Part shown: positions 20,331 through 60,892 of the stretch, one piece after another
How positions within the stretch are numbered: position 1 is the stretch's first letter
How the letters are laid out: the number at the start of each line of letters is the position of its first letter
Origin: an uncultured Granulosicoccaceae bacterium
Lineage (GTDB): Bacteria; Pseudomonadota; Gammaproteobacteria; Granulosicoccales; Granulosicoccaceae
DNA: 64,000 bases
NCBI GenBank assembly: GCA_937922675.1
Contig: CALAJN010000016.1
Span: 1-64,000 of the forward strand
Direction: 5' to 3'
Made by a program: the position numbers and the translations under genes
Notes under the pieces: model-generated
Seen by the model: only the letters and a program-made list of their open reading frames with translations
Databases searched by the model: none
What the model was told of the DNA's origin: nothing

Positions 20331-20334
<4 letters not shown>

Positions 20335-21464: not shown

Positions 21465-21465
21465 G

Positions 21466-26610: not shown

Positions 26611-26666
26611 CTATTGGTTCTCACTTGAATCAGGACGATGGAACCTGGATTCCGCGCAGGCGAGCA

Positions 26667-43061: not shown

Positions 43062-43090
43062 TTCTGGTATGGTAGTGTACCAGCTAATAT
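43062..43090. promoter_or_regulatory. Divergent promoter with TGGTA-N3-TACCA operator
   Basis: A perfect 13-bp palindrome (TGGTA GTG TACCA, 43070-43082) lies between a possible -35 (TTCTGG, 43062) and a -10 (TAATAT, 43085-43090) of the rightward gntR promoter. It also overlaps a possible leftward promoter for the SDR gene. TGGTA-type palindromes are typical of GntR/FCD regulators such as UxuR-like proteins. The same motif occurs before dctP. Confidence 0.7.
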
Positions 43091-43175
43091 TTCCAAAGAG
43101 CATCCTGCCGTCTCTCTCACTGCCTTGGCGATGGGCACAACTGCCGCGAAAGCGGTTGCGCAACGCCCCTGATTC

Positions 43176-43883
43176 ATGAGCCCCTCTGTTATGAGCGCGA
43201 CATCAGCGCCCTCTGAAGTCGAGGCACGCCGCACAACTGCCGACACGGTGTTCAACGCGCTGCGTGAAGACATAACAAAGATGCGTCTGTGCCCTGGCAC
43301 TCGCTTGTCTGAGGCTGAGGTCGCCAAGCAATACGATATTTCGCGCCAGCCAGTACGAGAAGCCTTTATCCGTCTCGACAACCTGCGTCTCTTGCAGATC
43401 CGACCTCAGCGAGCCACTGTTGTGCGTCCAATCTCTCGCGAGGGAATCAAACGAGCGCGATTTGTACGCCTGTCTGTGGAATTGGAAGTTGCGCGCCTCG
43501 CCTGTGAGCAATATGACGGCTCAGCCGACGCCACGCTTCATCAGCAGCTTGAACTGCAGCAGGCAAGCCTTGAAAAAGCCGATATGACAGCGTTCACCCA
43601 GCTGGACTACAGCTTTCACAATCAACTGTGTCTGGCCGCCGAACGTCCTCATGCCATGAAGGTGATCAGCGACTGCAAGGCCACCACAGACCGGCTCTGT
43701 ATTCCATCGGCTGTCTATGCCAAACGGACGCCGGAAGTGCTCGAGGATCACCGAGAGATTGTTGATCGGCTGGTGGCACGGGACCTGGACGGCCTGCTAG
43801 CCATAACGCGCGAGCATTTGGGACGGCTGGATGAGTCGCTGGATGCCTTTCAGCTTGAACACTCGGAATACTTTGAGGACTGA
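43176..43883 (+). CDS. GntR-family (FadR/FCD subfamily) transcriptional regulator
   Basis: A 235-aa repressor. Residues about 20-85 form the winged helix-turn-helix (LSEAEVAKQYDISRQPVREA). The rest is an FCD ligand-binding domain whose metal-site residues are visible (Asp and His in LDYSFHNQL, His in EDHREIVDRL, His in TREHLGRL). FCD domains bind sugar acids or organic acids. The first base of the kinase start shares the last base of its stop. It is divergent from the SDR gene and presumably binds the palindromes at 43070 and 57691. Confidence 0.92.
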   Translation: MSPSVMSATSAPSEVEARRTTADTVFNALREDITKMRLCPGTRLSEAEVAKQYDISRQPVREAFIRLDNLRLLQIRPQRATVVRPISREGIKRARFVRLSVELEVARLACEQYDGSADATLHQQLELQQASLEKADMTAFTQLDYSFHNQLCLAAERPHAMKVISDCKATTDRLCIPSAVYAKRTPEVLEDHREIVDRLVARDLDGLLAITREHLGRLDESLDAFQLEHSEYFED

Positions 43884-44806
43884 TGCAGACCCGAGCACTC
43901 GATCTGCTCTGCCTTGGTGAGCCGCTGTACGAGTTCAACCAGGAACCTGACGGTAGGTATATCGGCGGGCATGGCGGGGATACCTCCAATTGCGCCATCG
44001 CTGCCGCTCGCTGCGGTGCTCAAAGCGGCATGCTGACACATCTCGGAGATGACCAGTTTGGTCAAAGCTTCCTGAAGCTGTGGAAACACGAGGGCGTAGA
44101 CACCCGGTGGGTTCAATCCCGACAGGGTCAGGAGACCGGCGTCTACTTTGTGACCCACGATGAAACCGGCCACCACTTCAGCTACCGCAGGCGACATTCG
44201 GCTGCGGCATTGATGAGCGCTGAAGATGTCCCGGAGAGAGCTATCGCCGACGCGCACGTGCTGCATGTCTCAGGCATCAGCCTCGCGATTTCCTCCAGTG
44301 CCGCTGATGCGGTGTTCGCGGCGATCGAGCACGCAAAAAACCAAGGCACGCGTGTCTCATTTGATACCAATCTGAGACTTGCTCTTGCTCCACTGGCGCG
44401 CTCTCGAGCCTTGTTTTTGGACGTCGCGCGACAGTGTGACTTGCTACTCCCCGGCCTCGAAGATGCCCGGGCATTAACCGGCCTCGACAACGAAGAGGCC
44501 ATCGTCGACTACTTTCTCGCTGCTGGCTGCCCACTCATCGCGATGACGCTTGGCTCACGCGGTGTATTGGTGGCCACACCGCAAGAGCGCTTTACCGTAG
44601 ACGCATTTTCTGTCAATGCCATTGATGCTACAGGCGCTGGTGACACGTTTGACGGGGCATTTCTGTCGCAGTGGGTCAAGGGCGCAGACCCGCGCACTGC
44701 AGCAGAGTTTGCAAACGCAGCAGCAGCCCTGTCAACGACAAGCCGAGGCGCCATCGCCGCCATGCCTGAATTCACGGAAGTGGAAGAACTGTTGCGTTCA
44801 GCGTAG
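43883..44806 (+). CDS. kdgK: PfkB-family sugar kinase, probably 2-keto-3-deoxygluconate kinase
   Basis: A 307-aa kinase. The PfkB signatures are present: GGHGGDTSNCAIAAARCG near the N-terminus and the catalytic DATGAGDTFDGAF near the C-terminus. The motif HHFSYRRRHSAA is the kind used by KDG kinases to hold the carboxylated sugar. It phosphorylates KDG to KDPG, which would feed the Entner-Doudoroff aldolase. ATG overlaps the regulator stop (TGATG), so the two are one transcript. Confidence 0.86.
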   Translation: MQTRALDLLCLGEPLYEFNQEPDGRYIGGHGGDTSNCAIAAARCGAQSGMLTHLGDDQFGQSFLKLWKHEGVDTRWVQSRQGQETGVYFVTHDETGHHFSYRRRHSAAALMSAEDVPERAIADAHVLHVSGISLAISSSAADAVFAAIEHAKNQGTRVSFDTNLRLALAPLARSRALFLDVARQCDLLLPGLEDARALTGLDNEEAIVDYFLAAGCPLIAMTLGSRGVLVATPQERFTVDAFSVNAIDATGAGDTFDGAFLSQWVKGADPRTAAEFANAAAALSTTSRGAIAAMPEFTEVEELLRSA

Positions 44807-44849
44807 AGCCAGGGCAAGCAGCAAGGCACGCTGAGCGTGCCCCCACAGA

Positions 44850-45332
44850 TTACTTCTTGTTGCGACGTCGCATCCGTTCCTGAACAGCTTCGTGGCCGGA
44901 TTGCCCCACGCCCCAAGTCAACGAAAGTGAGGACTGCTCCACACGCTCACCAACACAATCGCTCTCTGGCAAACGGATCTGTCGAGCATGAAATTGCACT
45001 CGTAGAAGCCCTGCGATCAAGGTTTCTACTGAACGATGTCGTGCAACATAATTCTGTCGGTTGCGGTGCACTCGCAGCCGCCCAAACTCTCGATCCAGCA
45101 GTCTGCGCACTTGCAGCCGCAAGTTGTTTACAACCGCTGGCTCAAGACACGCGAGGAGGTGGTCAAGGTTGTTGATCTCTACCGAGGCCTCGTAGCTGAG
45201 CGATTGCCTCATGGACAACAATTCTGCGGTGGTACGCGGTGCCATGCTCCTGCCACTTAACACTCTTGGCGAGCGGTAAGCGGCAAGGTCAACAATCGAG
45301 GCTGACTGCTGATTGCTCGTGGACGAGGGCAT
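44850..45332 (-). CDS. Hypothetical protein, 160 aa
   Basis: Unrecognised. Starts at ATG 45332. The N-terminus is Ser-rich; the middle (DHLLACLEPAVVNNLRLQVR) looks helical; the C-terminus ends in a basic run (MRRRNKK). Overall it is Arg-rich and soluble, with no signal or membrane segment. It converges with kdgK and lies behind the first phosphoribosyltransferase on the same strand. Codon use resembles the neighbours, which is the main support. Confidence 0.5.
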   Translation of the reverse strand: MPSSTSNQQSASIVDLAAYRSPRVLSGRSMAPRTTAELLSMRQSLSYEASVEINNLDHLLACLEPAVVNNLRLQVRRLLDREFGRLRVHRNRQNYVARHRSVETLIAGLLRVQFHARQIRLPESDCVGERVEQSSLSLTWGVGQSGHEAVQERMRRRNKK

Positions 45333-45465
45333 CAAAACTCCGTAGGACTGGGCGTTCGATCAACTGCAAACCCAAGCGTTCGCAGCGAAGAGCTCGCATG
45401 GTACCGAGAGTCTATCGCGGGCGGGATTACCGAACCGCTAAAACGTGACCGAGCACGACTCACTG

Positions 45466-46059
45466 TCACAATCTTTCGTCTTGCAACAGGCCTTCGCTCA
45501 GTTGAGCGGTGCGTAGAATCGCTGATAAACGTGGCCGATGCCTGGAGATCTCCTCGGCGCTCAAACCTTCGAGTGAGTGTGGGAACTTGATCCACTCGTC
45601 AGTCTCGTGCAGGAAATAGTCAGGCACCCGTTCAGTCTGCCGACGCGAGGGCTTGTAATAGGGAACAGCCACTCGCACGTCTTCGGGCATGTTGCGCCGC
45701 GTTAATTTAGCGAGCTTGTCGATGATGGCCTGCACGCTGCGCCCGGTGTCAAAGACATCGTCAACGATAAGCAGTCGATCAGTCGCCGAAATTTTCTTCA
45801 CGAGGTAGGACAGGTTATACACCTCTACTTCGCTGGCTTGACGATCAATATCGTGGTACGACGCGGTCCGCACGGTTATGTGATCAGCACTCACCCCGCG
45901 ATAGGCAAGCAACTCCTGAACAGCGACGCCCACCGGTGCCCCACCACGCCAGACAGCCACGATAAAGCTTGGGCGAAACCCGGATCGGTACACGTCGGCT
46001 GCGAGTTTGAAAGAGTCTTCCAGTAGTGCCTGCGCATCCAGATAGATTTTGTCCGCCAT
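45466..46059 (-). CDS. Phosphoribosyltransferase-family protein (first paralogue)
   Basis: About 197 aa from ATG 46059. It has a type I PRTase fold with the PRPP-binding loop LLIVDDVFDTGRS and an N-terminal helix-strand pattern (FIVAVWRGGAPVGVAVQELL) like hypoxanthine or xanthine PRTases. The hood residues differ from Hpt/Gpt, so the base is not predictable. It is divergent from a paralogue 62 bases away; both end in a similar extension (LEGLSAEEISRHRP versus LDGLSEDEISAHKP). Confidence 0.88.
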   Translation of the reverse strand: MADKIYLDAQALLEDSFKLAADVYRSGFRPSFIVAVWRGGAPVGVAVQELLAYRGVSADHITVRTASYHDIDRQASEVEVYNLSYLVKKISATDRLLIVDDVFDTGRSVQAIIDKLAKLTRRNMPEDVRVAVPYYKPSRRQTERVPDYFLHETDEWIKFPHSLEGLSAEEISRHRPRLSAILRTAQLSEGLLQDERL

Positions 46060-46121
46060 CCCGCCATCATACGGGGCAAGCACCCGCGATTCGTTACAAT
46101 CCACCACCAACCAACAGCAAC

Positions 46122-46757
46122 ATGGCTTGCTGCGACCCAGATTTGCCCACGCCCGAAGAGAGCCTCGTGACTGCGCCGGTCCAAAAACGTTTCATCACCG
46201 AGTCCGAGCTGCTTGAGGACGCCTTCAGGCTCGGCGTCAGCATTGCGAATTCAGGCTTCAGGCCCAATACGATCGTGGGTCTGTGGCGTGGCGGCAGCAC
46301 CGTCGGGATCTACGTACAGGAATGCCTGCAAACCCTCGGGATCCTGACAGATCACATCGCCATCCGTACGTCTTACCGCGGCTTGGCAAGCTATGAGCAG
46401 ATGATCGACAACCCGGAGCGCGAGATCCGCATTCACGGGACCCAATATCTACTGGAGACCCTCAAGCACGACAGCGGGCTGTTGATTGTCGACGACGTCT
46501 ATGCTTCCGGTCTGACGATGGAGGCTGTGATCAAAAGGCTGACGAAGAGACTCAAGCGCAACACGCCGCACGATATTCGAACTGCTGCTGTATGGCACAA
46601 ACCTGCTCGTAACCGAACCGGGTCCAGACCCGACTACCACGTCCATGAAAGTGAGCAATGGCTGGTCATGCCGTATGAGCTGGACGGCCTGAGCGAGGAC
46701 GAGATCTCTGCCCACAAACCCTGGCTCGACCCGATCCTGGCCAGTATCAAGCATTGA
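46122..46757 (+). CDS. Phosphoribosyltransferase-family protein (second paralogue)
   Basis: About 211 aa from ATG 46122. It is homologous along its length to the divergent gene (NTIVGLWRGGSTVGIYVQE, RTSYRGLASYE). The PRPP loop reads LLIVDDVYASGLT: the Asp-Thr of a standard loop is Ala-Ser here, so the pair differs at the core of the active site. A Cys pair is at the N-terminus (ACCDPD). It is followed after 1 base by the DUF368 transporter. Confidence 0.87.
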   Translation: MACCDPDLPTPEESLVTAPVQKRFITESELLEDAFRLGVSIANSGFRPNTIVGLWRGGSTVGIYVQECLQTLGILTDHIAIRTSYRGLASYEQMIDNPEREIRIHGTQYLLETLKHDSGLLIVDDVYASGLTMEAVIKRLTKRLKRNTPHDIRTAAVWHKPARNRTGSRPDYHVHESEQWLVMPYELDGLSEDEISAHKPWLDPILASIKH

Positions 46758-46758
46758 C

Positions 46759-47661
46759 ATGAACGCTGACTTCACACTGTTTCTCAAAGGCGTTGCCATG
46801 GGCGCTGCCAACGTGATCCCGGGAGTCTCCGGCGGCACCATCGCCTTGGTCACTGGTATTTATCAACGTCTGATATCGGCCTTGGGCAGTATCGGCCCCA
46901 CCAGTGGTCGGCAATTGCTGAGCGGCGATTTGCGCGGGTTTCTGACGGCGATTGATGCGCGCTGGCTCACCGTGCTCATGCTGGGTGTGGCAGCCAGTAT
47001 CTTGACTCTTGCCAAGCTTTTCGACTGGCTACTGGTAGCCCACGAGAAATTGACCATGGCCTTCTTTTTTGGTCTCATACTCGCGTCGATTGTGTACGTG
47101 GCACAACAGGTGACACGCTGGAGCTCAAGCGCATGGACGTCACTGGCGCTTGGCGTCGGTATCGCACTGGCTATCGCCCTGCTCAGCCCTGGCAGCGAAA
47201 ACGCCGCTCCCTGGTATGTGTTCATGTGCGGCGTTCTCGCTATTGCAAGTATGATTCTGCCTGGGCTCTCAGGTTCGTTTGTACTGATTCTGATGGGCAA
47301 CTACGCACTGGTACTCGGCTCTATCTCTCGGCTGGACCTCGGCGTCCTGATTCCACTCGCTGTTGGTTGCGGTATAGGTCTCGTTGCCTTTTCACACATT
47401 CTGAAGTGGATATTCGAGCGCTATGCCGATGCCACGCTTGCTTTGATGACAGGCTTCGTGGTGGGCTCACTCGCCATTATCTGGCCGTGGAAGCACACGC
47501 TGACCAATGCGATTCAACGAGGCGACGGCGAGGTAAAGACCGTGGTGACAGGCTACGAATGGTATCTGCCCGGACTGAATACCACGACAGCGTTGGCCAT
47601 CCTGCTGGCGATACTGGGCGCAGCGCTGATTATTCTCATGGAGCGCGTGGCACGAGACTGA
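46759..47661 (+). CDS. DUF368 polyprenyl-phosphate transporter
   Basis: A 300-aa inner-membrane protein with about eight hydrophobic segments and two re-entrant-like motifs, MGAANVIPGVSGGTIALVTG and ASMILPGLSGSFVLILMG. This duplicated PG-S-G pattern defines the DUF368 family, recently shown to recycle undecaprenyl phosphate across the membrane. A role in envelope carrier recycling is therefore likely. It begins directly after the second PRTase and overlaps the convergent MFS gene by 26 bases. Confidence 0.9.
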   Translation: MNADFTLFLKGVAMGAANVIPGVSGGTIALVTGIYQRLISALGSIGPTSGRQLLSGDLRGFLTAIDARWLTVLMLGVAASILTLAKLFDWLLVAHEKLTMAFFFGLILASIVYVAQQVTRWSSSAWTSLALGVGIALAIALLSPGSENAAPWYVFMCGVLAIASMILPGLSGSFVLILMGNYALVLGSISRLDLGVLIPLAVGCGIGLVAFSHILKWIFERYADATLALMTGFVVGSLAIIWPWKHTLTNAIQRGDGEVKTVVTGYEWYLPGLNTTTALAILLAILGAALIILMERVARD

Positions 47662-48895
47662 GCGAGTAACGCCACAAGGTATACAGGCCTGCTGCCAGTA
47701 AAAAGGTCAACCAGGTCAACGGGGCCGACGTGCCGTTGTGCAGCAAACTGACCGCAACCGCTGCCAGACCGGCCATTGTTTGCTCGATACCCGAAAGCAA
47801 GGCTGAGGCAGTACCGGACCCTTCTTTGACTGAGCGCAGTGCACGACTTGGGGCGGATGAGAAAACGCAGCCCATACCAAACGTCATGATCATGTAACTA
47901 CAGGTCAACCGAACGGATGTCTCAAGGCCTGAGAGCACCACCAGGCACAAAGCAGCAGCGCCGGCCACTATGATCAAAACGCCAGCGCTCAACAGACGCT
48001 CGCTGGGCCAGGACCCTGCCACACGCGAGGCAAGCAGACTTCCAAAGAAAAACGCGACAACAATAGCGGCTTGATACCAACCGAAACGATCGGGCGACAC
48101 ACCGTGGTTTTCAATGAACACAAAAGGCGCACCGGTCACAAACACGAAAATAAGGCCCAGGGCAATGCCCAACATCATTGAGTGGATGACGAACTCGGCG
48201 TTATGAAGCAAGCGCAGATAGCCTGAGAGGATACGGCGCGGTTGCAGCGCCAGAGGGTCCGGTGTTGTCGACTCAGGCAGGTAGCGCAACACGATCCCAA
48301 AGGACAAAACAGCCATCGCGGCGATCACAAAGAAATTGCTTTGCCAGCCCAGATTAACGTGCAGGTAGCCGCCCAGGATGGGGGCGATTGCAGGCGTTAC
48401 AGCGATGACCATGCCGAGCAAGGCCAAGGCACGCATCTGCTCGGTTTCATCATAGAGGTCCTTGATGACCGCCAGACCGATGACCGCCTCTGCAGCTGCA
48501 GCGGTGCCGAGTAGAACACGCGCAATAATCAGCTGATCGATGGACTGTGCAAACGCGCAGGCGACACACAGAATCGCGACGGCAACCAAGGATGAGAGCA
48601 AGACCGGTTTACGACCAAAGCGATCCGAGAGCGGACCATGAATCAGCTGCGCCAGGCCAAAGGCGAGCAGGTTCAGACTGATGGTCAATTGGACACGCGT
48701 GGCATCTGTCTCGAACCACCTGGCGAGGTCCGGCAGGCTGGGCGAGTACATGTCTGTGGACATGATGCTCGTGCTCGATGCGAGCACGATGATACCGACC
48801 ACCAGCCGAATCGATGCCGGATTCACCGAGGCTTGTTCGGCTGACGGATGTCGAGCAGGCGGCCGCACCGAGGTCGGGCCGTACGAGTCCTTCAT
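47636..48895 (-). CDS. Bcr/CflA-family MFS drug exporter
   Basis: A 419-aa transporter with twelve hydrophobic segments. The Bcr/CflA group is recognised from SIMSTDMYSPSLPDLARWFE in helix 1 and the MFS loop motif LIHGPLSDRFGRKPVLL. It exports antibiotics or metabolites such as bicyclomycin or sulfonamide-like drugs; the actual substrate is unknown. The roughly 30-residue N-terminal tail is long for the group, so the start may be further in. Confidence 0.88.
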   Translation of the reverse strand: MKDSYGPTSVRPPARHPSAEQASVNPASIRLVVGIIVLASSTSIMSTDMYSPSLPDLARWFETDATRVQLTISLNLLAFGLAQLIHGPLSDRFGRKPVLLSSLVAVAILCVACAFAQSIDQLIIARVLLGTAAAAEAVIGLAVIKDLYDETEQMRALALLGMVIAVTPAIAPILGGYLHVNLGWQSNFFVIAAMAVLSFGIVLRYLPESTTPDPLALQPRRILSGYLRLLHNAEFVIHSMMLGIALGLIFVFVTGAPFVFIENHGVSPDRFGWYQAAIVVAFFFGSLLASRVAGSWPSERLLSAGVLIIVAGAAALCLVVLSGLETSVRLTCSYMIMTFGMGCVFSSAPSRALRSVKEGSGTASALLSGIEQTMAGLAAVAVSLLHNGTSAPLTWLTFLLAAGLYTLWRYSLSLVPRAP

Positions 48896-49207
48896 CCCGG
48901 TGCCTCTGTGGTGCGGCGCGCCAGCTTACATCGACAAACGCTCCACTGTCCGAAATTACATCGACAGTGCCTTGTCGATAACTACATGCGTCCAGGCACC
49001 TTCCGGCGCCTCACTGATCACCAGTGACCGCACCCCCGCCGACCGGACCGATTTCTGCGATGACACCGCCATCGACCAAAACATCAGCCTCGTAAGTTCG
49101 GTCAGCGGTCACCATCGTGGCGCCATTGATAACAATAGTCATCGACTATTTACTCACGTTGGTCTGATCACAATTCAGTAAGTCCAGCAACTACTGACGC
49201 ACTTGGC
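48896..49207. other. Intergenic region with no recognisable gene
   Basis: About 310 bases between the MFS exporter and the M20 hydrolase. A rightward frame crosses it, but it begins inside the MFS gene and shows no domain. There is a short imperfect repeat (ATTACATCGACA and AACTACATG around 48956-48987). Promoters for the leftward exporter should lie here, but I see no strong consensus. Confidence 0.5.
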
Positions 49208-50482
49208 CTAGCTGTCAACGATACGCGCAGTCTCGACGACAGCATGGAATAGCACGTTGGCCCCAGCTGTGGCCCAAGCCGGTGTAATCTCTTCAGCCTC
49301 GTTGTGCGAGAGTCCGTCAATACAGGGGCACATCACCATAGCGGTCGGCGCAACCCGGTTGATCCAGCAGGCATCGTGACCGGCGCCAGAGACGATGTCG
49401 CGATGTGTATACCCCAGGCGATCAGCTGCGCTACGCACTGCAGTGACGCAGGTCTCATCAAAGGTTACAGGGTCGAAGCCGCCCACCTCTTCTATTTCCA
49501 TACCGAGTCCGATGGCCTCGATGATCTGCTGCGCGCCTTGTCGAAAACGCGACTCCATATCAGCAATGACACTCTTTTCCGGGTGCCGAAAATCAACAGT
49601 GAACACGACGCGGCCGGGGATGATGTTGCGAGAATTGGGGTAGACATCGCAGTGACCAATAGCACCCACTGCATACGGCGCATGTGACAACGCGATATCG
49701 TTGACAAGCTCGGTCATTCGCGCCATGCCCAGGCCTGCATTGACACGCATCGGCATCGGTGTGGAACCGGTGTGACTCTCCTTGCCGGTCAGACGCACCT
49801 CCAGCCATTTCAGTCCCTGCCCGTGCGTCACAACACCGATCTCGCACTCCTCGCGCTCAAGGATTGGACCTTGCTCAATATGCAACTCGAAGAACGCGTG
49901 CATCTTGCGTGCGCCAACCACTTCCTCACCCTTGAATCCAATACGGGCAAGTTCGTCCCCAAGACGCTTGCCATCGGCATCCACACGATCGTAAGCCCAG
50001 TCGAGTGTGTGCATATTGGCAAATACACCGGAAGCGACCATCGCGGGAGCGAACCGCGTGCCCTCTTCGTTAGTCCAGTTGGTCACGACTATGGGGTGGC
50101 GAGTGGAGACATTGATGTCGTTGAGCTGACGAACGATTTCAAGCCCCGCAAGGACTCCAAGAACCCCATCGTATTTGCCACCAGTGGGTTGCGTATCCAG
50201 ATGACTACCCACGTACACAGGCAGGGCATCAGGATCTGTCCCCTCACGACGCGCAAACATGGTGCCCATGGCATCAAGACCCATACTGCAACCCGCAGCC
50301 TCACACCACTTTTGAAACAGACGGCGACCCTCGGCGTCTTCGTCAGTGAGTGTTTGCCGATTGTTGCCACCGGCAAGCCCAGGCCCGATCTCGGCCATTT
50401 CCATCAACGAAGCCCACAAGCGCTCGCCGTCTATCCGCAGATTGCTTCTCACTGATTGGGCGCCAACTGAGTCTATTGGCAT
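49208..50482 (-). CDS. M20 Zn-dependent hydrolase (N-carbamoyl amino acid hydrolase / ureidopropionase type)
   Basis: About 424 aa from ATG 50482. The metal ligands are clear: His and Asp in VGSHLDTQPTGGKYDG, Glu in NWTNEEGTRFAP, His in FELHIEQGP, and GAGHDACWIN near the C-terminus. This family cleaves N-carbamoyl groups (ureidopropionase, allantoate amidohydrolase, L-carbamoylase). Linkage to methylmalonate-semialdehyde dehydrogenase suggests beta-ureidopropionase in reductive pyrimidine breakdown. The dihydropyrimidinase and dehydrogenase genes are not in the window. Confidence 0.88.
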   Translation of the reverse strand: MPIDSVGAQSVRSNLRIDGERLWASLMEMAEIGPGLAGGNNRQTLTDEDAEGRRLFQKWCEAAGCSMGLDAMGTMFARREGTDPDALPVYVGSHLDTQPTGGKYDGVLGVLAGLEIVRQLNDINVSTRHPIVVTNWTNEEGTRFAPAMVASGVFANMHTLDWAYDRVDADGKRLGDELARIGFKGEEVVGARKMHAFFELHIEQGPILEREECEIGVVTHGQGLKWLEVRLTGKESHTGSTPMPMRVNAGLGMARMTELVNDIALSHAPYAVGAIGHCDVYPNSRNIIPGRVVFTVDFRHPEKSVIADMESRFRQGAQQIIEAIGLGMEIEEVGGFDPVTFDETCVTAVRSAADRLGYTHRDIVSGAGHDACWINRVAPTAMVMCPCIDGLSHNEAEEITPAWATAGANVLFHAVVETARIVDS

Positions 50483-50493
50483 CAAAAATACCC

Positions 50494-51981
50494 CTAGTGA
50501 GTCGGGAACGTGAATACGGCACCTTCTCGAATACCGGTTGGCCACCGACTGGTCACCGTCTTGAGGCGAGTATAAAAGTGCACACCCTCCGGACCGTAGA
50601 TCGAGTGGTCTCCAAACAATGAACGCTTCCAACCGCCGAAGCTGTGATACGCCACCGGCACTGGAATCGGCACGTTGATGCCAACCATGCCTACTTGAAT
50701 ATCATTGGCAAAGGCGCGGGCTGCATCGCCATCACGTGTAAAAATGGCGGTGCCGTTTCCGTATTCATGATCATTGATCATGGTGACGGACTCGTTGTAG
50801 TCCGCTGCTCGCACTACCGCCAAGACAGGCCCAAATATTTCTTCCTGATAAATGCGCATGTCGGTGGTGACATGATCAAACAGGCTGCCCCCCAGAAAGT
50901 ACCCGTTCTCATAGCCCTGCAAGGAAATTGATCGCCCATCCACCACAAGCTGAGCGCCCGCTTCAACCCCTGCGTCGATCAACGAAGTGATGCGCAGCTT
51001 TGCATCTGCTGTTATGACGGGCCCCATTTCTGATTCGCTGTCGTCGGCAGGACCAACTTTCAAGGCTTCGACACGCGGTCTCAACTTGGCGACCAGAGCA
51101 TCAGCTGTGCCCTCACCGACCGGCACGGCAACTGACACAGCCATACAACGCTCACCGGCCGAGCCATAGCCGGCGCCCATGAGCGCATCTACCGCCTGAT
51201 CAAGGTCTGCATCCGGCATGATGATCATGTGGTTCTTGGCACCACCGAGCGCTTGTACACGTTTACCTGCCTCGGTACCACGTCGATACACGTACTCAGC
51301 TATCGGTGTTGAGCCAACAAAACTGACCGCTTGGACATCGGGATGATCAAGTAGTGCATCCACAGCTACCTTGTCGCCGTGAACCACATTCAGTACCCCA
51401 GATGGCAAACCGGCCTCATGCAGCAGGTCGGCAACGAACATGACAGCAGAGGGATCGCGCTCTGAAGGCTTCAAGACAAAAGTGTTGCCGCAGGCAATGG
51501 CTACCGGGTACATCCAAAGAGGCACCATGGCCGGAAAATTGAACGGCGTTATACCGGCACACACACCGAGGGCCTGCCGATCAGACCAGGAATCAATGCC
51601 AGGTCCTACATTGCGACTGAACTCGCCTTTCAACAGTTGAGGGATACCGCAGCAAAACTCAACAACCTCTCTGCCGCGCTGGACTTCACCGAGTGCGTCA
51701 TCGTGGGTTTTGCCGTGCTCACGAGATATTTCCCGTGCCACATCATCCGCCCGCTCCTGCAGCAGGGTGTTGAAACGGAACATGACGGCCGCACGTTTGG
51801 CCGGCGGCGTATTTGACCAGGCGGGCAAGGCAGCTTTGGCAGCAGCAACGGCGGCTCCTACATCACCAACGCTGGACAAACCCAGTGTGTCCGTCTCCTC
51901 GCCAGTGGCCGGGTTGAAAACCGGCTGCGACTTGCCACTGGTGGTGGCGCTGCGGGTACCTGCAACGAGGTTTTCGATCAT
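50494..51981 (-). CDS. mmsA: CoA-acylating methylmalonate-semialdehyde dehydrogenase
   Basis: It converts methylmalonate or malonate semialdehyde to propionyl- or acetyl-CoA. The 495 residues include NAD-binding [15 protein letters not shown], the catalytic Cys in [14 protein letters not shown] and the family-typical [13 protein letters not shown]. There is no separate catalytic Glu motif, as expected for this CoA-dependent class. It is upstream of the M20 hydrolase, separated by 11 bases. Roles in valine, inositol or beta-alanine breakdown are all possible. Confidence 0.93.
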
Positions 51982-52133
51982 GACTCAGCTCTCTTGGACC
52001 TTCGGCGGAAGGCTGAAGAAAGCTAACTCATGTAGATGACACGGTCAACGAATCAACGCTGTGTCAGGCACCAGATTGCTCCTGACGTTATACCATTGCA
52101 GACGCTGTCTCCAAGATTGCACCGCTCGCTACT

Positions 52134-52688: not shown

Positions 52689-52735
52689 AGCGCGCATCGG
52701 ATGAAACACTTGCCATAGCGAGATCCACTGGTGCG

Positions 52736-53176
52736 TCAGTCAGTCTCGTCCTGATAGACACCGTACAGAACGATTCGATGATCCGTCAGGGAGTAACCAA
52801 GCTCTTCGGCAATCTCGTGCAGGCGTTCTTCGATACGCACGTCCTTGAACTCAGCCACCCTGCCCGACTTCACGCATACGATGTGATCATGGTTGTCGCC
52901 ATTGTCCAGCTCGAAAACGGCCTGGCCGCCAGCAAAGTGATGACGGGTGACAATCCCGGCACCCTCAAACTGTGTCAGCACCCGATAAACGGTTGCGAGT
53001 CCGATGTCGCTGTCATTGGACAGCAGCTCCTTGTAGACATCCTCTGCACTCAAATGATGCGGCTCAGCCTCCTCGAGAATCTCCAGAATGCGCAAACGCG
53101 GTGTCGTGACCTTGAGGCCCGCCTTGCGCAAATCATGAGTGCCCTGGTGTTCGCGGGCTTCGCTGGCCTCGGCCAT
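52736..53176 (-). CDS. fur: Ferric uptake regulator Fur
   Basis: An iron-sensing repressor of 146 aa from ATG 53176. The DNA-binding half is LKVTTPRLRILEIL, then IGLATVYRVLTQFE. The dimer half has the metal His cluster (TRHHFAGGQAVFELD, DNHDHIVC, SLTDHRIVLYG). The CxxC structural zinc motif of E. coli Fur is incomplete (CVKSG), a variant also known from pseudomonads. No iron box is visible nearby. Confidence 0.94.
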   Translation of the reverse strand: MAEASEAREHQGTHDLRKAGLKVTTPRLRILEILEEAEPHHLSAEDVYKELLSNDSDIGLATVYRVLTQFEGAGIVTRHHFAGGQAVFELDNGDNHDHIVCVKSGRVAEFKDVRIEERLHEIAEELGYSLTDHRIVLYGVYQDETD

Positions 53177-53539
53177 GGAGTTGTCCTGAGATGGTAACCA
53201 CCGCAGTATAGGGTTTATCCCTGTTCTTAGCATGGGCTTTGACCGATTGCCGTCGATTTCACTGCGGATGGGAGTGGGGCCGACGAGGGATCAGCGAAGC
53301 ATCTGCGGCGGCGCCCAGGCTGGTGCACACGCAGGTTATTTCAGACACAGCCTAACGGCCGCACAGCGCCCAGAAGCGGCTACACACCCTCGTGTAACAG
53401 GTTTCTTGCACCACAAGTGGTCGCTCTACTCGCCGCTGTAACAAAGGTCTGATCAGCTGCACGGATGACGCGCACGCTCGGATACCGTACCCGCGCTCAG
53501 CACGTGGCGCTTCTTCAAGCTGACTTCAGGAAGGCCAGA
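53177..53539. other. Intergenic region between fur and cheV
   Basis: About 360 bases with no convincing gene. Rightward, a frame starting at ATG 53465 leads into cheV, but its first 25 residues are not CheV-like. An AGGAAGG ribosome-binding site lies at about 53528. I see no sigma28 motif typical of flagellar and chemotaxis genes. Confidence 0.5.
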
Positions 53540-54523
53540 GTGGACCTCAAATCAATTGACGACCGCACCAATCTCGCCGGTACCAACCGGTTGGAATTGT
53601 TGACGTTCAGGCTCTGCGACACGCGTGACCCTGCAGGGACTGCCCTCTACGGCATAAATGTATTCAAGGTGCGTGAGTTGATGGTGACGCCACGACTGAT
53701 GCCGATTCCAGAGATGCACCCCTGCATGGCAGGAGTCGCGAACATCCGCGGCAAGGTCGTGCCGGTCATCGACCTTGACCTGTACATGGGTTTTCAACGC
53801 CCTCCTGAATCATCCCCTATCCTGGTCGTCACGGAATTCAACCGCAGCACCCAGGGCTTCCTGGTTGACGAGGTAGAAAGCATCATGCCTCTCGCCTGGA
53901 GTGATGTTCAGGAGCCACCTGAAATGATTGCCGAGGCACACAACAATATCCTGACCGCATTCAGCCCGCTCGAAGAAAAAACGATGCTACTCACCATCGA
54001 CGTCGAGCGGGTGATCTATGATGTTCTCGGCAGCAACACAGACGACATGGCCGAGGCTGATATCGCCAAGGTGAATGATTCGCGCATGATCTTCTTCTGT
54101 GACGACTCAGCAGTAGCGCGGGCGCAGGTGACCAAGATCCTGGATCGGATGGATGTCGCGCATCAATCTGCTGTCAACGGCCAGGATGCCCATGACATGC
54201 TGATGCAGATAGCCGATGAGGCAGAAGCTGGGGGCAAGAAGCTCTCTGACCTGTTGCTGGCGGTCGTCACCGATGTAGAGATGCCCAAGATGGACGGCTA
54301 TGTACTGACGTCAAAACTCAAGGCAGACAAACGGTTCAAGGACGTTCCAGTGATGATGCACTCGTCGTTATCCACATCGGAAAACAAGCGTCTTGGCATG
54401 CGCGTGGGCGCAGATGGTTACATTCCAAAGCTGCAGCCAAGAGAGTTCTCGTCAACCTTGGTTGATCTGATCGCAAAGGCTCATCCGGATGTTGCCGTCG
54501 AGCAGCTGCCCAAGGTCGCCTGA
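53540..54523 (+). CDS. cheV: Chemotaxis coupling protein CheV (CheW domain plus receiver)
   Basis: It links chemoreceptors to CheA and is adjustable by phosphorylation. GTG 53540 is chosen because it follows AGGAAGG and gives the standard CheV start (LKSIDDRTNLAGTNRLELL). Residues about 10-160 form the CheW domain (IRGKVVPVIDLDLYMGF). Residues about 190-327 form the receiver domain with the acid pair FFCDDS, phospho-Asp in VVTDVEMPKMDGY and Lys in YIPKLQP. No other chemotaxis gene is in the window. Confidence 0.92.
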   Translation: MDLKSIDDRTNLAGTNRLELLTFRLCDTRDPAGTALYGINVFKVRELMVTPRLMPIPEMHPCMAGVANIRGKVVPVIDLDLYMGFQRPPESSPILVVTEFNRSTQGFLVDEVESIMPLAWSDVQEPPEMIAEAHNNILTAFSPLEEKTMLLTIDVERVIYDVLGSNTDDMAEADIAKVNDSRMIFFCDDSAVARAQVTKILDRMDVAHQSAVNGQDAHDMLMQIADEAEAGGKKLSDLLLAVVTDVEMPKMDGYVLTSKLKADKRFKDVPVMMHSSLSTSENKRLGMRVGADGYIPKLQPREFSSTLVDLIAKAHPDVAVEQLPKVA

Positions 54524-54592
54524 TAGCCCGACTCAAGAGCCATTTGAAAAGCTGCACAACAGAAATCGAGCGGAAGAAAGCTGTCGGGCAGC

Positions 54593-56548
54593 TCAGCGAC
54601 TCGCTCCAGACCCCTGCTTGCTGAACAAGTCGACCAGCTGTCGACTCATGACGTCAGGCAACTGCGCAACATCGTGTATTGTCGTCGCGTGGGCATAGTA
54701 TTGCCCCACATCGTGACCAATACCAATGGCTATCAGCTCGGTATCGCCTGCACGCTCGATTTCACGAATGACGTAGCGAAGATGCTTTTCAAGAAAGCGA
54801 CCACTGTTGGTAGACAAGGTCGAGTCGTCAATCGGTGCCCCATCAGAGATCATCATCAAGATCTTTCGTTGCTCACAGCGTTGCTGCAATCGCCCATGGG
54901 CCCATAGCAGTGCCTCACCGTCAATGTTCTCCTTGAGCAGCCCCTTTCGCATCATCAAACCCAAATTGATTCGCGCTTGACGCCAAGGGGTATCAGCCGC
55001 CTTGTAGATAATGTGACGAAGGTCGTTCAGCCTGCCGGGCTCTGCCGGATACCCGGCCTCGACCCAACGCTCCCGAGACTTGCCACCCTTCCAGGCCGCA
55101 GTGGTAAATCCGAGGATCTCGGTCCGAACCCCACACCGCTCGAGCACAGAGCACAGGATATCTGCACACACTGCGGCGACCCGTATCGAGCGCCCGTGCA
55201 TGGAGCCCGAGTTATCGATCAACAAAGTGATGACCGTATCCCTGAAAGGAGTCTCCACCTCCTGCTTGAACGTCAATGCGGACAAAGGATCAGTCAGTAC
55301 ACGCGTCAGGCGCGCGCAATCGAGCTGCCCCTCATCAAGATCAAACTCCCAGCTACGTCGCTGTTGAGCCATGAGCACCCGTTGCAGACGATTGGCAAAG
55401 CGCCCAATGGAGCGTTGCAGATCACCCAGGTGCGTATCGAGGAGCTTGCGCAGTCGCATAAGCTCCTCAAGGGTGCAGATATCCAGTGGCCTGACAATTT
55501 CATCGTACTCACGTGTATAGATCGGGTACTCACCGCGTCGGGCAATGGAGACCCCGTCGCTGCTGGCATGCCAACTCGCTCCCGGTTGATCCGAACTGCG
55601 ATCCTGCACGTCCTCGTCCGGCTCTATCGCATCACTTCCGTCTTCGGCCGATGCATCATCGCCTTCGTCCTCGGTATTTGCATCATCACCGCTCGGCAGA
55701 CTGTCCTGTTCATTGCCACTGTTGCTATCAGCATCCGCGTCATCACTCTCGTCCTGCTCTGCCTGCTCACCGGAATCACTGTCAGGTGCGTCTTCAGAGT
55801 CACTGGCTTCGAGCCCAAGCTTTCGAAGTAATTGGTCGACATCAAGGGCAAAAGCCGTCTGATCATCCAAGGCAAACTCATGAGACTGCGCAAGCTCGCC
55901 AATAGTCGCTTCCAGATAGTCACGCCAGTCGGCAATTGCCTCTGACGCAGCAGACGGCAGGCGTGCCCCAAAACGCTCGCGCAACCACAGTGAAGCGGCG
56001 TGTTCTATACCAATACGCGTACTGCCTGGCATCCTAGCCATGCTTGCATTGTCATCTCGGGACTCGGAGAGCACTTCCGACTTTGGAGCGCCGCCGATGG
56101 AATCAAGCAGACTGCGATAGCGCCGTTGCAAGGCTACATCAAGGTTGCTGGCTACACCATCAAAGTCTCTGGCGCCGAGCATTTCCACACGGGCCTGTTC
56201 AGCAAGCGCAAACAGGCGCTGCGAGATATCACTTGACGGCTCGTGGCGCAAGTGAGTACGCGGATCGTGATGCTGACGGTGCAATGCAATGGCATCGCTA
56301 CGCCCCCGTGCCTCCATTCGGTCAAGTCGGTTGGCACCAGGAGGCAGCTCGGGCACTTCTACTTTTGACTGACCCGCCGACTGACCTGCCAATTGGGTGC
56401 TGTCACCGTCAGCAAAGCGGATTTCCAAGGAGCTGTCTTCGGCAATGGCGCGCGCACAGGCCACCGTCGAGCGCTCGAAGCCATCAGGACTGGCATCGTT
56501 TGCGGGCTCCTTATCTGTCACCGCAGCGCTTGACTCAAACTGGTTCAA
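54593..56548 (-). CDS. cobT: Aerobic cobaltochelatase subunit CobT
   Basis: With CobS it forms the ATPase ring that helps CobN insert cobalt into hydrogenobyrinate diamide. About 651 aa; the start is uncertain, TTG 56548 is the best candidate after the cobS stop. The N-terminal half is the CobT domain. The middle, about residues 260-350, is a long Asp/Glu/Ser-rich acidic linker. The C-terminal part is a von Willebrand A domain with MIDAS motif [10 protein letters not shown]. CobN is not in the window. Confidence 0.9.
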
Positions 56549-56561
56549 CCATGACTCAGGT

Positions 56562-57545
56562 TTAACTACTGGTGTCGAGCATCTCTTCACCAAACACACG
56601 CTGGTAAAGCTCGGCAATCAGCGAGCGCTCCATGGGATCACATTTGTTGACAAAAACCAGCTCAAAAGCCAAGGCCGGATCCTTGAAGAATTTTAGATTT
56701 TCGGTCCAGGTGATCACTGTACGTGGACTCATTACCGTAGCCAGGTCACCATTTCTAAACGCTGAGCGTGTCAGGTTTGCCAGCTGTACCATGCGCTCTA
56801 CCAACACCTTTCCTTGCTCGTCATGCAAGTGCTTGGCCTTGGCAAGAACAATGGCTACTTCTTGTTCAGCTGGCAGGTAGTTCAAGATCGTGGTCACCGA
56901 CCATCGGTCCATCTGTGCCTGATTGATCTGCTGAGTGCCGTGATATAGCCCGGTGGTATCACCAAGGCCTACCGTGTTGGCTGTGGCAAAAAACCGGAAT
57001 GCCGGATGCGGGCGCAATACGCGGCTTTGATCCAGTAGCGTCAACTGACCCGAGGCCTCCAGCACCCGTTGAATAACAAACATCACATCGGGGCGGCCGG
57101 CGTCGTACTCGTCAAACACAAGAGCAACATTACGTTGGTAGGCCCAGGGCAAGATGCCGTCCTGAAACTCTGTGACCTGCTTGCCATCCTTCAACACGAT
57201 CGCGTCCTTGCCAATCAAGTCGATGCGACTGACGTGACTGTCAAGATTGATTCGCAGGCACGGCCAGTTGAGGCGTGCAGCCACTTGCTCGATGTGGGTG
57301 GACTTACCGGTGCCGTGAAACCCCGAGACGAGAACTCGCCAATCATTGGCAAAGCCGGACAGGATCGCAAGCGTTGTGGCTCGATCAAAGCGGTAGTCCG
57401 GGTCGATTTCAGGGACCCGTTCAGAAACGTCTGAATACGCCGGGACCTCGATATCGGAGGCAAATCCGAAGGTGTCATCGACGCGCACCGTGGTGTCGGG
57501 CATCGGGCTCTCGGCGGACGCATCCGTGAGACGGGTGTCGAGCAT
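56562..57545 (-). CDS. cobS: Aerobic cobaltochelatase subunit CobS
   Basis: An AAA+ ATPase of about 327 aa (ATG 57545). Walker A is [13 protein letters not shown] and Walker [10 protein letters not shown]; the sensor region is [12 protein letters not shown]. The N-terminal segment [20 protein letters not shown] is the CobS signature. It is transcribed just before cobT. Such a CobST pair is best known from alphaproteobacteria; related ChlID pairs are usual in pseudomonads. Confidence 0.92.
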
Positions 57546-57670
57546 TCTTGACAACTTTCAGGCAGCGAAAGGAGCCCTTGATCTTACCGTGCACACGCGC
57601 GACCTGCGCAACAGTGCGTCGAGCCCGTCGCTTCTACCGTTTGTTTCATGTCGACTTGTGAAAAATCTGC

Positions 57671-57710
57671 TTGACAGTGATGCTCCTGTGTATGGTATTC
57701 TACCATACCA
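57671..57710 (+). promoter_or_regulatory. dctP promoter with TGGTA-N3-TACCA operator
   Basis: A perfect -35 TTGACA (57671-57676) is followed 17-19 bases later by a -10-like region (GGTATT or TATTCT) lying inside a 17-bp perfect palindrome (TATGGTA TTC TACCATA, 57691-57707). A third TACCA follows at 57706-57710. A repressor there would cover the -10. The core equals the palindrome in the SDR/gntR divergent promoter. Confidence 0.75.
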
Positions 57711-57819
57711 GTTGTACGGCCCTGGCTGTTGCGCTGTACGTCCCGAGCGCATGTGCTATCGGGTCGAACACCACATGATCACGAACAACACACAAGCAGA
57801 AACCCGGAGGATTAATTAC

Positions 57820-58791
57820 ATGTTCAAGAAACTTTCTCTCGTTTTGACCGGGGCGCTGGCATGCGCGTCGTTTAGCGTCCAGGCGGAAGACTGGCGCGCA
57901 TGGAACATTCACAATGACGGCCATCCAAACACCGCCGCCATGGATCGTTTCTCAGAGCTCGTGAGTGAGGCCACCGGCGGTGAAATCAACGTCGAAGTAT
58001 TTCACGGCGGCGTCCTCGGCTCACAACCCGATGCGCTTGAGCAAGTTCGCCTTGGCGCTATCGAGATCGGCAACTTCAACCTCGGCCCCATCGGCCCGAT
58101 CGTCAAGGAAGCCAATCTGGTCTCCCTGCCCTTCATTTTCAAAAGTGTTCCGCACATGTTTCGCGTACTCGAAGGCGAAGCCGGTGAAACCATCGCAGCT
58201 GCCATGGCAGAAGCTGGCATCAAGCCGCTCGCCTGGGTTGACGCAGGTGCACGCTCGTTCTACAGCCAAAAGCCGATCAATACACCCGCAGATGTCGAGG
58301 GCCTGAAGATCCGAGTCATGAACAATGACCTGTACACCTCCATGATTTCTGCCATGGGCGGCAACCCCTCACCGATGGCATTCGCCGAGGTTCAACAAGC
58401 ACTCAAGACCGGTGTTGTGGATGGTGCAGAAAATAACTTTCCTTCGTTCAAGAGCGTTGGACACTACGAAGTTACCACTCACTACTCGCTCAGCGAGCAC
58501 CTGATCATCCCTGAGTGCATCTGCGTCAACACGGCCAAGTTTGACGCCCTTTCAGAAGACATGCAGGCAGCCGTTCGCGGTGCCGCCGAAGAGGCAGCCT
58601 TGTACCAGCGCGAGCTCTGGGCGGTACAGTCCGGACAAGCACGTGAGGAAGTAGAAGCTGCCGGCATTGTGGTCAACGAAATTGCTGACAAGGGCCCGTT
58701 CCAGGATGCCATGGTTGCGGTTTATGACGAATACCTGGCCGCCAATCCCGACATGGCAGACCTGGTCGAGATGGCTAAAAACACTGAGTAA
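57820..58791 (+). CDS. dctP: TRAP transporter substrate-binding protein DctP
   Basis: A 323-aa periplasmic protein (ATG 57820, CGGAGG ribosome-binding site 9 bases upstream). The signal peptide ends at VQAED. The DctP fold is clear from WVDAGARSFYSQKPINTPAD, LKIRVMNN (the carboxylate-binding Arg) and VVDGAENNFPSF. GARSFY and ENNFPSF are typical of the branch that binds uronates and related sugar acids. The operator, shared with the KDG-kinase locus, supports a uronate ligand. Confidence 0.92.
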   Translation: MFKKLSLVLTGALACASFSVQAEDWRAWNIHNDGHPNTAAMDRFSELVSEATGGEINVEVFHGGVLGSQPDALEQVRLGAIEIGNFNLGPIGPIVKEANLVSLPFIFKSVPHMFRVLEGEAGETIAAAMAEAGIKPLAWVDAGARSFYSQKPINTPADVEGLKIRVMNNDLYTSMISAMGGNPSPMAFAEVQQALKTGVVDGAENNFPSFKSVGHYEVTTHYSLSEHLIIPECICVNTAKFDALSEDMQAAVRGAAEEAALYQRELWAVQSGQAREEVEAAGIVVNEIADKGPFQDAMVAVYDEYLAANPDMADLVEMAKNTE

Positions 58792-58809
58792 GCGTCTGAA
58801 GCAAGTAAT

Positions 58810-58854
58810 CTACACAGGGGGTGACCGGGTGTTGCCAGGCACCCCCTTCTGTAG
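58810..58854 (+). terminator. Hairpin between dctP and dctQ
   Basis: CTACACAGGGGGTG and CACCCCCTTCTGTAG form a long stem (seven GC-rich pairs at the top, extended with mismatches) around a 16-base loop. There is no T run, so it is probably an RNA-stabilising or partial-termination hairpin that raises binding-protein expression over the membrane subunits. It mirrors the aapJ-aapQ hairpin. Confidence 0.65.
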
Positions 58855-58957
58855 CGCAGTTCATTGATTGGCATTCACAGTGTTTGCGTAAACCACAGCC
58901 CCAGTACACCACCGTGTCCTCTGGAGTGTTTCTGATCCACCGCCGGGAGGGCCAACA

Positions 58958-59485
58958 GTGAGCGACGTTACCGAAGCCTCGTCCTTCGTACGCGGAATGA
59001 ACAAGACCTACGACCTGCTCTGCCGTGTATGCCTGGTACTCGCCGGTACAGCCTTGGTCGTCATGACCTTGATGTTTGCCTGGCTCGTCTTTGGACGCTA
59101 TGTGCTCAACGACACCCCGACATGGGTCGAACAGGTCTCGCACCTGTTGTTGATGGTGATCGCCTTCCTTGGTGCAGCTGTTGGCGTCAAACAGGATACT
59201 CACCTGTCCGTTGTATTTTTCCGCAGCGTCGTACCCACATGGCTACGTACAGCATTTGTCTTCATGACAGACCTGTTGATGGCGAGTTTTGGCGCCTTGA
59301 TGTTCTGGTTTGGACTTGAGCTTACGATGTTCAAGTGGAAATCACTGATACCGTTGATCCAGGTACCTGAAGGCCTGCGTTCACTGCCTTTGACCATTTG
59401 CGGGGCGCTTGTGTTCTTGTTTTCAATAGGTCATCTGATTCAGCTCCTGCGCGGTCGCGATTCGCGCAAAGACAGCATCGAGTAG
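58958..59485 (+). CDS. dctQ: TRAP transporter small membrane subunit DctQ
   Basis: A 175-aa protein starting at GTG 58958 with GGGAGG seven bases upstream. It has four hydrophobic segments and the DctQ motif FGRYVLNDTPTWVEQVSHLL. The small subunit holds the large subunit DctM in the membrane. It ends 12 bases before dctM. Confidence 0.92.
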   Translation: MSDVTEASSFVRGMNKTYDLLCRVCLVLAGTALVVMTLMFAWLVFGRYVLNDTPTWVEQVSHLLLMVIAFLGAAVGVKQDTHLSVVFFRSVVPTWLRTAFVFMTDLLMASFGALMFWFGLELTMFKWKSLIPLIQVPEGLRSLPLTICGALVFLFSIGHLIQLLRGRDSRKDSIE

Positions 59486-59497
59486 AGAGACAAAAAC

Positions 59498-60778
59498 ATG
59501 GGACTCGCTTTGCTGCTAGGGGTATTCGCCCTGTGCGTCGTTATCGGTTTACCCGTTGCCTTTGCACTGGGCATTTCGGCACTTGCCGCATTCTGGTTTG
59601 AAGGCCTGCCAATGCTGATCGTATTTCAGCGCATCGTGTCGGGCATCAATGTGTACTCCCTGATGGCGATCCCCTTCTTCATCTTCGCCGGGGAGCTGAT
59701 GTTCCATGGCGGTATCGCCCAGCGCTTGGTGCGGTTTGCACAAAACGCGGTAGGTGCCATGCGCGGCGGACTGGGCACAGTCAACGTGTTCTCTTCGATG
59801 TTGTTTGGAGGTATCTCAGGCTCCGCTATCGCTGATATCTCCGCATTGGGCTCAATCCTTATCCCGGTAATGAAGGACAAGGGCTACGACGCCGACTACG
59901 CGGTCAATGTCACGGTAACCTCATCGATCGCTGGCATCATCATTCCACCCAGTCACAACATGATCATCTTCGCGCTCGCCACAGGCGGCGCAGTCTCGAT
60001 ATCCAAGCTGTTCCTGGCCGGAGTCATACCTGGCGTCTTGATGTGTACCTGCCTTGCCGTTGCCGCTTACGTCATTGCGGTAAAACGTGGATATGCGGCT
60101 GAAAAATTTCCCGGGTGGACGGTGCTGGTGTTGAGTTTCTTCAGTGCCATTCCGGGTTTGTTGACAGCCATCATCATCGTTGGTGGCGTCTTGTCCGGTG
60201 TATTCACGGCAACCGAATCAGGGGCGTTTGGCGCGCTCTACGCTTTTATCGTCACGGTGGCCGTGTACCGCTCCATCACATGGGAGAGCTTCAAGGTCGC
60301 TGTGGTGAGCTCAGTGCGCACCACATCGATGGTCATGATCCTGATCGCTTGCGCCGGGGCCTTTGCCTACATGTTGACTTTCTTTCGAGTACCCAGTTTG
60401 ACCATCAGCTTTTTGACCGGCCTGACTGAAAATCCGATCCTGATCCTTCTGATGATCAATGGCGTGCTGTTGCTACTCGGCATGATCATGGATATGGCGG
60501 CACTCATACTGATCTGTACCCCGATTTTCATGCCAATCATGAATCAGCTTGGGGTCGACCCCTTGCAGTTCGGAATGATCCTCCTTGTCAATCTGGGGCT
60601 GGGGCTGTGCACCCCTCCGGTAGGGTCCTGCCTGTTTGTGGGCTGTGCCGTGGGCAAGCTACCCATGGAGAAGGCGGTGCGTACGATCTGGCCGTTCTAC
60701 CTCGCGATCCTTGTCGCACTGATGCTGATCACCTTTGTACCCGCAATCTCACTGACCTTGCCTCGATTGATCAGCTAG
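59498..60778 (+). CDS. dctM: TRAP transporter large membrane subunit DctM
   Basis: A 426-aa sodium-coupled transport subunit with about twelve hydrophobic segments. The DctM motifs GGISGSAIADISALGSILIP, IIIPPSHNMI and LGLCTPPVG are all present. It completes the dctPQM operon. A terminator follows 73 bases later. Confidence 0.95.
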   Translation: MGLALLLGVFALCVVIGLPVAFALGISALAAFWFEGLPMLIVFQRIVSGINVYSLMAIPFFIFAGELMFHGGIAQRLVRFAQNAVGAMRGGLGTVNVFSSMLFGGISGSAIADISALGSILIPVMKDKGYDADYAVNVTVTSSIAGIIIPPSHNMIIFALATGGAVSISKLFLAGVIPGVLMCTCLAVAAYVIAVKRGYAAEKFPGWTVLVLSFFSAIPGLLTAIIIVGGVLSGVFTATESGAFGALYAFIVTVAVYRSITWESFKVAVVSSVRTTSMVMILIACAGAFAYMLTFFRVPSLTISFLTGLTENPILILLMINGVLLLLGMIMDMAALILICTPIFMPIMNQLGVDPLQFGMILLVNLGLGLCTPPVGSCLFVGCAVGKLPMEKAVRTIWPFYLAILVALMLITFVPAISLTLPRLIS

Positions 60779-60850
60779 CGCCGTCGCCCCCTTGAGGTAC
60801 TGTTGGTCGCAAATAGAACTGGTGGCCAGGACGCAACTGCGATATCCTCA

Positions 60851-60869
60851 CCGCGTCGCGCGGTTTTTT
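60851..60869 (+). terminator. Intrinsic terminator after dctM
   Basis: CCGCG-TCG-CGCGG followed by six T. The stem is short but pure GC, with an additional A-T pair at the base. It separates the TRAP operon from the cobalamin riboswitch directly downstream. Confidence 0.75.
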
Positions 60870-60892
60870 CTTGAGGCCTCGTTCTTCGAGGC

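Follow-up and report, generated by a model that had tools for sequence, protein, structure and literature searches.

Can two loci that lie some 14 kb apart be read as one regulon from a short operator that both carry, and if so, what would that regulon be for? The question is raised by a 64,000-nucleotide stretch of DNA (the window) from an uncultured Granulosicoccaceae bacterium, which carries at one place a gene for a short-chain dehydrogenase/reductase (SDR) diverging from gntR and a sugar kinase gene, and at another the dctPQM genes of a tripartite ATP-independent periplasmic (TRAP) transporter. A first reading made from the letters alone (the sequence-only reading) had proposed that a TGGTA-N3-TACCA operator links the two for the import and breakdown of a uronate. 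Our analysis points to a regulon in which a repressor of the GntR/FCD type probably controls a uronate TRAP importer, a reductase of 4-deoxy-5-hexoseulose uronate (DEH) and a kinase of 2-keto-3-deoxygluconate (KDG). DEH is the monomer of alginate, a main carbon store of brown algae. A defined operator makes such an alginate-monomer regulon traceable through genomes and ties a TRAP importer to the alginate-monomer pathway, and reading distant loci together through a common operator can bring out a pathway that is visible at neither by itself. Of wider interest is whether the alginate monomer itself is the cargo of the TRAP system.

Both palindromes are where the sequence-only reading had placed them: TGGTA-N3-TACCA occurs exactly at 43070-43082 (TGGTAGTGTACCA) and at 57693-57705 (TGGTATTCTACCA), each time between genes. 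These are its only two occurrences in the window, against a mean of 0.01 in 100 dinucleotide shuffles, none of which held two. Reversed patterns served as controls in genome scans and shuffled sets in those of the window and of upstream regions. The whole genome (20 contigs, 3,631,817 bases) contains the exact pattern at these two sites only, and the reversed pattern once; the scatter of random matches that had been named as the danger to the proposal is not found among the exact sites, which belong to the two loci. With one mismatch allowed there are 22 further sites in the genome against 65 for the control, so that only the exact pair stands out. Both sites extend to a longer common stretch, CTGGTATGGTAGnnTACCA (43064-43082 on the plus strand, 57693-57711 on the minus strand), which reads towards gntR in the window and in the relatives G035, G013 and G008 (G numbers denote genomes), and each consists of two overlapping dyads with one arm in common.

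Which of the two dyads is conserved can be seen in 48 related genomes, all from the window's own family, and in a set of regions upstream of gntR or dctP, 40 from the host family and 93 from outside it. The family form is a CTAG-centred repeat, TGGTAT-nCTAGn-ATACCA (CTGGTATACTAGTATACCAG). Its core, with at most three mismatches, is present in 15 of the 40 regions inside the host family (0.4 in shuffles) and in 26 of the 93 outside it (0.4 per shuffled set); these 93 are related to one another and, as the CTAG model was built after inspecting earlier pattern matches, they are not wholly unseen. GGTATnCTAGnATACC stands exact before dctP in G019 and G026. The inner TGGTA-N3-TACCA is exact in four of the 40 host-family regions and in none of the 93 others, and because of this absence and the strong enrichment of the CTAG core it was rejected as the true operator; with two mismatches it is somewhat enriched outside the family (21 versus 6.1). 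Its axis lies 2.5 bp off that of the outer repeat, and it arises where one changed base of the CTAG core creates GGTA. The putative operators of the window, and the promoter element that accompanies the second, are as follows.

43064..43083, plus strand: Operator 1, CTGGTATGGTAGTGTACCAG, between SDR and gntR, in the same place in G035, two mismatches to the family core
57671..57676, plus strand: TTGACA, -35 element of dctP, 17 nt before the operator core, with conserved spacing
57693..57711, minus strand: Operator 2, CTGGTATGGTAGAATACCA, over the -10 position of dctP, one mismatch to the family core

It is the location of such sites across the relatives that joins the two loci. Matches to CTGGTATGGTAGnnTACCA with at most two mismatches make up 29 rows, or 28 distinct sites, in the 48 genomes; 18 of the 28 lie at gntR, SDR or dctP, as do all seven exact ones. 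The family core with at most one mismatch is found at 17 places, against 8 for the control, 11 of them at the gntR/SDR/dctP regulon; one more, in G027, is roughly 1.1 kb away from an SDR gene that belongs to a lyase locus. GntR homologues are present in 42 of the 48 genomes at E 1e-20 (50 rows with at least 38% identity were kept for counting), and 18 of 31 dctP genes, drawn from 45 rows, have an orthologous gntR no farther than 1.5 kb away; in several of these pairs a matching site stands between the two genes. In G008, G013, G015 and G001, one operator-type site separates gntR from a divergent dctP or SDR-dctP; it is an exact CTGGTATGGTAGnnTACCA in the first three and has two mismatches in G001. 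Orphan dctP genes keep the site too, with 1, 0, 0 and 1 mismatches in G033, G019, G026 and G042. Genomes with this GntR hold 27 of 30 dctP genes, and an operator with at most three mismatches is present at 17 of these 27 (SDR-dctP operons counted), with at most four at 23. The only three dctP genomes without this GntR (G024, G025 and G006) have best site matches of 5, 6 and 5 mismatches, though these genomes are few. The SDR-site-gntR-kinase locus of G035 is the same as that of the window. The divergent arrangements, the sites kept at orphan dctP genes and the siteless genomes without the regulator all speak for the proposed union of both loci, and a single uronate regulon is, in our view, well supported by this comparison.

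The dctP site also keeps its distance from a promoter element. Fourteen of 30 dctP upstream regions have a core with at most three mismatches, and TTGACA precedes it in all 14 (at 17 nt in 13, at 16 nt in one); among the 16 regions without such a core, TTGACA lies near the best match in one. The same 17 nt separate TTGACA from the core in G013, G015, G001 and G008, on the side that faces SDR or dctP. The operator starts 17 nt after TTGACA and therefore lies over the -10 position of dctP, as one would expect of a repressor site. The TTGACA promoter attributed earlier to dctP stands in part: the hexamer is real and its distance is fixed and conserved, but a sigma-70 scan gave no promoter above threshold at dctP, so the -35 assignment rests on conservation.

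Domain and family models uphold the gene content that had been described for both loci.

42267..43016, minus strand: SDR, predicted DEH reductase (DehR-like; PF13561/PF00106)
43176..43883, plus strand: GntR/FCD regulator (PF00392 58.3 bits, PF07729 69.8 bits, both over cut-off)
43883..44806, plus strand: PfkB sugar kinase, predicted KDG kinase (PF00294), whose ATG overlaps the gntR stop
57820..58791, plus strand: dctP, TRAP solute-binding protein, uronate type (PF03480)
58958..59485, plus strand: dctQ, TRAP small permease (PF04290)
59498..60778, plus strand: dctM, TRAP large permease (PF06808; TIGR00786 over cut-off)

Around dctPQM, the window has cobT-cobS (54593-57554) on one side and a cobalamin riboswitch (60847-61086) with a TonB-plug receptor on the other, the whole interval spanning 54593-63259.

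The regulator has an N-terminal GntR winged helix and a C-terminal FCD domain, and the UxuR and ExuR models score far below cut-off on it. FCD proteins have a metal-binding Asp/His cluster in the effector pocket; D144, H148, H192 and H214 of this protein, invariant in 14 homologues, are consistent with a metal-containing effector pocket. As for the transporter, the predicted structure of DctP (predicted local distance difference test score, pLDDT, 88.7) matches 4ovq (Z 43.6, root-mean-square deviation 1.9, 301 residues aligned, 69% identity), followed by 4p1l and 4pf8, and we take all three to hold glucuronate or galacturonate. DctP residues R145, R165 and N205 are invariant in 24 homologues. 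Equal spacing, rather than an alignment with STM3169, matches them to R150, R170 and N210 of that protein, the two arginines and the asparagine that the available part of the source gives as its ligand signature (PMC7660916). The same-spaced Arg-Arg-Asn triad and the fold match make a uronate the likely ligand of DctP.

The neighbours of its orthologues tie the SDR to alginate. There are 34 of these orthologues in 31 of the 48 genomes; 23 have a PL15-type exo-oligoalginate lyase no more than 150 bp away, nine have gntR at 2 kb or less, and 32 are near a lyase (at most 6 kb) or gntR (at most 2 kb); the lyase itself is present in 34 of the 48 genomes. The earlier assignment of the SDR as a DEH reductase is supported by this adjacency and by the gene order of Falsirhodobacter sp. 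alg1, in which, according to the portion of the paper at hand, the lyase was validated and a DehR-like reductase stands in the same order (PMC4866713). The closest solved chains, 4yqy and 3edm, are both uncharacterised; A1-R' (4w7i) and the related chain 4tkl, with E values of 1e-40 or lower, are not the closest. A tree of 55 SDRs, which has no support values, groups the window's protein with its G035 and G034 counterparts, next to SDRs from the same family that adjoin a lyase, and intermixes lyase-adjacent with dctP-adjacent proteins. SDR lies beside dctPQM in four of the 34 cases (G013, G015, G001 and G023) and likewise in several Rhodobacterales loci, which speaks for DEH as the TRAP substrate. 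The window's genome and G035 have a lyase operon without SDR and a single SDR beside gntR and the kinase. The gntR locus of relatives also has genes for a UgpC-type ATP-binding cassette (ABC) importer, a DUF4962/heparinase-like protein and a GH88-like protein; 3a0o, an oligoalginate lyase (presumably Atu3025 of family PL15), is matched by the DUF4962 protein with 1107 bits. The best solved match of the kinase is the KDG kinase 1wye, and KDG kinase is its predicted function by closeness and context only. A gene for 2-keto-3-deoxy-6-phosphogluconate (KDPG) aldolase stands beside an Edd-like gene on a different contig of the window's genome. The lyase-ABC operon of that genome (G000:C14:6212-13799, L077) has its own second GntR/FCD gene, preceded by a weak CTGGTATA-type sequence that we do not claim as an operator.

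We would explain the regulon as follows. When inducer is absent, a dimer of the GntR/FCD protein would bind the inverted repeat of 18-20 bp (CTGGTATGGTAGTGTACCAG and CTGGTATGGTAGAATACCA in the window); over the -10 position of dctP it would block the promoter, and the second site sits in the gap that separates SDR from the gntR-kinase operon. The repression would be lifted when the FCD domain binds a uronate intermediate, be it KDG, KDPG or DEH. DctPQM would then import a monouronate freed from alginate, DEH or its unsaturated precursor being the likeliest; the SDR would reduce DEH to KDG and the kinase convert KDG to KDPG, and the KDPG aldolase encoded elsewhere would complete the route. Tentatively, and with a confidence just short of an even call, we go one step further and see in DctPQM a high-affinity bacterial importer of DEH or unsaturated alginate monouronate, which with the reductase, the KDG kinase and GntR would form a module for scavenging the monomer released by other degraders, under a CTAG-centred operator common to Granulosicoccaceae and algae-associated Rhodobacterales. 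Three genomes (G013, G001 and G005, 89-91% complete) have gntR, SDR and dctPQM, and a PL15-type lyase was not found in them.

The cargo is where the most serious competitor arises. The same regulon could serve a DctPQM whose cargo is a saturated hexuronate (D-glucuronate, D-galacturonate, D-mannuronate or L-guluronate), the SDR and kinase then working on oligomers brought in by a separate ABC system and KDG being the inducer common to both routes; this is a real possibility, though one to which we lean less than halfway. It draws on the solved relatives of the solute-binding protein, 4MHF and 4N91, which reportedly bind glucuronate and galacturonate, not DEH, and so count against our proposal as well (PMC7660916), and on ManD, a D-mannonate dehydratase that adjoins several of the loci. 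The glucuronate isomerase UxaC is present in the window's genome, but in only 11 of the 48 genomes (6 of the 30 that have listed dctP loci), some of the assemblies being incomplete; the glucuronate isomerase route thus does not explain the wide spread of dctPQM, and the enzyme was rejected as a pathway partner. Nor does a saturated hexuronate sit well with the SDR-dctPQM neighbourhoods of the four relatives and the Rhodobacterales. It is much less probable that the dctP site is merely left over from an ancestral gntR-dctP divergon and now unbound. The orientation of both sites does fit descent from one divergent arrangement, and the cobT-cobS to btuB interval of G035 has no dctPQM, which tells us that genes have moved; however, a relic would hardly have kept its site at four orphan dctP genes and its distance to TTGACA. 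That the two sites match by chance, or that site 1 is the hairpin of a transcription terminator, seems to us barely credible: site 1 does score as terminator-like and one-mismatch sites are no commoner than the control, but the exact pair is unique and both its place and the TTGACA distance are conserved.

Several results nevertheless weigh against a single regulon for the alginate monomer. As first drawn, its operator was wrongly delimited, the comparison favouring the outer CTAG-centred dyad. The suggested search for more sites before KDPG aldolase or alginate lyase genes turned up no further exact site in the genome and, in pattern scans from exact to mismatched, no further operator before either; the lyase operon of the window's own genome has no clear one. 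The core promoter said to overlap the SDR/gntR site found no support: the sigma-70 scan gave none above threshold there, and TTGACA is missing on the SDR side of the window, where none lies 14-21 nt before the core, and of G035. Among the 28 sites of the CTGGTATGGTAGnnTACCA type in the relatives, 10 lie elsewhere, and with two mismatches the sequence is no commoner than its reversed control (29 versus 28 rows), so it is location and not number that carries the signal. Ten of the 27 dctP genes in GntR-bearing genomes have no operator within three mismatches, and four of these none within four. The kinase scores 187.6 bits on the NCBIfam KDG/KDGal kinase model, its best, below the cut-off of 400, and has an orthologue in only seven of the 48 genomes.

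Known alginate systems show the same parts in other arrangements. The alyFRB operon of Falsirhodobacter sp. alg1 and the Atu3025 cluster of Agrobacterium combine a UgpC-type ABC importer, a PL15-type oligoalginate lyase and a DehR-like reductase in one operon, whereas the window has its SDR apart from these, with gntR and the kinase; the available part of that source mentions neither a TRAP system nor a GntR (PMC4866713). Falsirhodobacter algicola has the same order as alg1, with an SDR 58.6% like the window's. There and in Pseudooceanicola algae, TRAP-gntR adjoins ABC-lyase-SDR-cupin-ManD, in P. algae also a sugar kinase, and in each 18.7-kb locus the half-site CTGGnATACTAG, searched at one mismatch, flanks gntR once on either side and has no other occurrence; this favours our explanation. 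A plasmid of Sulfitobacter pontiacus (L225) carries, in one cluster, two TRAP systems, GntR, a cupin, an SDR (66% to the window's), an aldehyde dehydrogenase, a mannonate dehydratase and a sugar kinase; a lyase is absent among the listed genes, and the locus has no half-site, a further point on the opposing side.

UxuR/ExuR/GguR-type hexuronate regulons of Proteobacteria are likewise governed by the GntR family, with short TGGTAT-type palindromes before uronate genes; in contrast, the operator here is CTAG-centred with a 6-6-6 layout. The hexuronate TRAP systems (STM3169-3171, Bpro_3107 and GaaPQM) have the same fold of the binding protein and the Arg-Arg-Asn signature at the same spacing, but here the TRAP genes are joined to a DEH-type reductase and an alginate-linked GntR. 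AusR of Zobellia galactanivorans is also a GntR-family repressor of alginate genes, and differs in belonging to a flavobacterial system of alginate polysaccharide utilization loci, as far as the available part of its description goes (PMC8286568). The portions of alginate reviews at hand name the fungal DHT1 as DEH transporter; in one of them TRAP does not occur, in another the term 'TRAP transporter' does not. Titles and abstract openings, which are no proof of absence, yielded neither a TRAP transporter of DEH nor this operator. Granulosicoccaceae appear among the kelp-surface families with alginate lyase genes in the accessible part of one study (PMC9238374).

Two other regions of the window deserve mention. 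At 34239-40079 lies an open frame of 1946 amino acids in which UvrA-type domains recur, with two UvrA interaction stretches among them; it resembles a UvrA of double length. At 19201-28474, an ABC importer of the sugar type is accompanied by three Gfo/Idh/MocA oxidoreductases and a PhyH-like protein, and in G031 (L049 7531-10743) three neighbouring genes of the same families stand directly before dctPQM-gntR.

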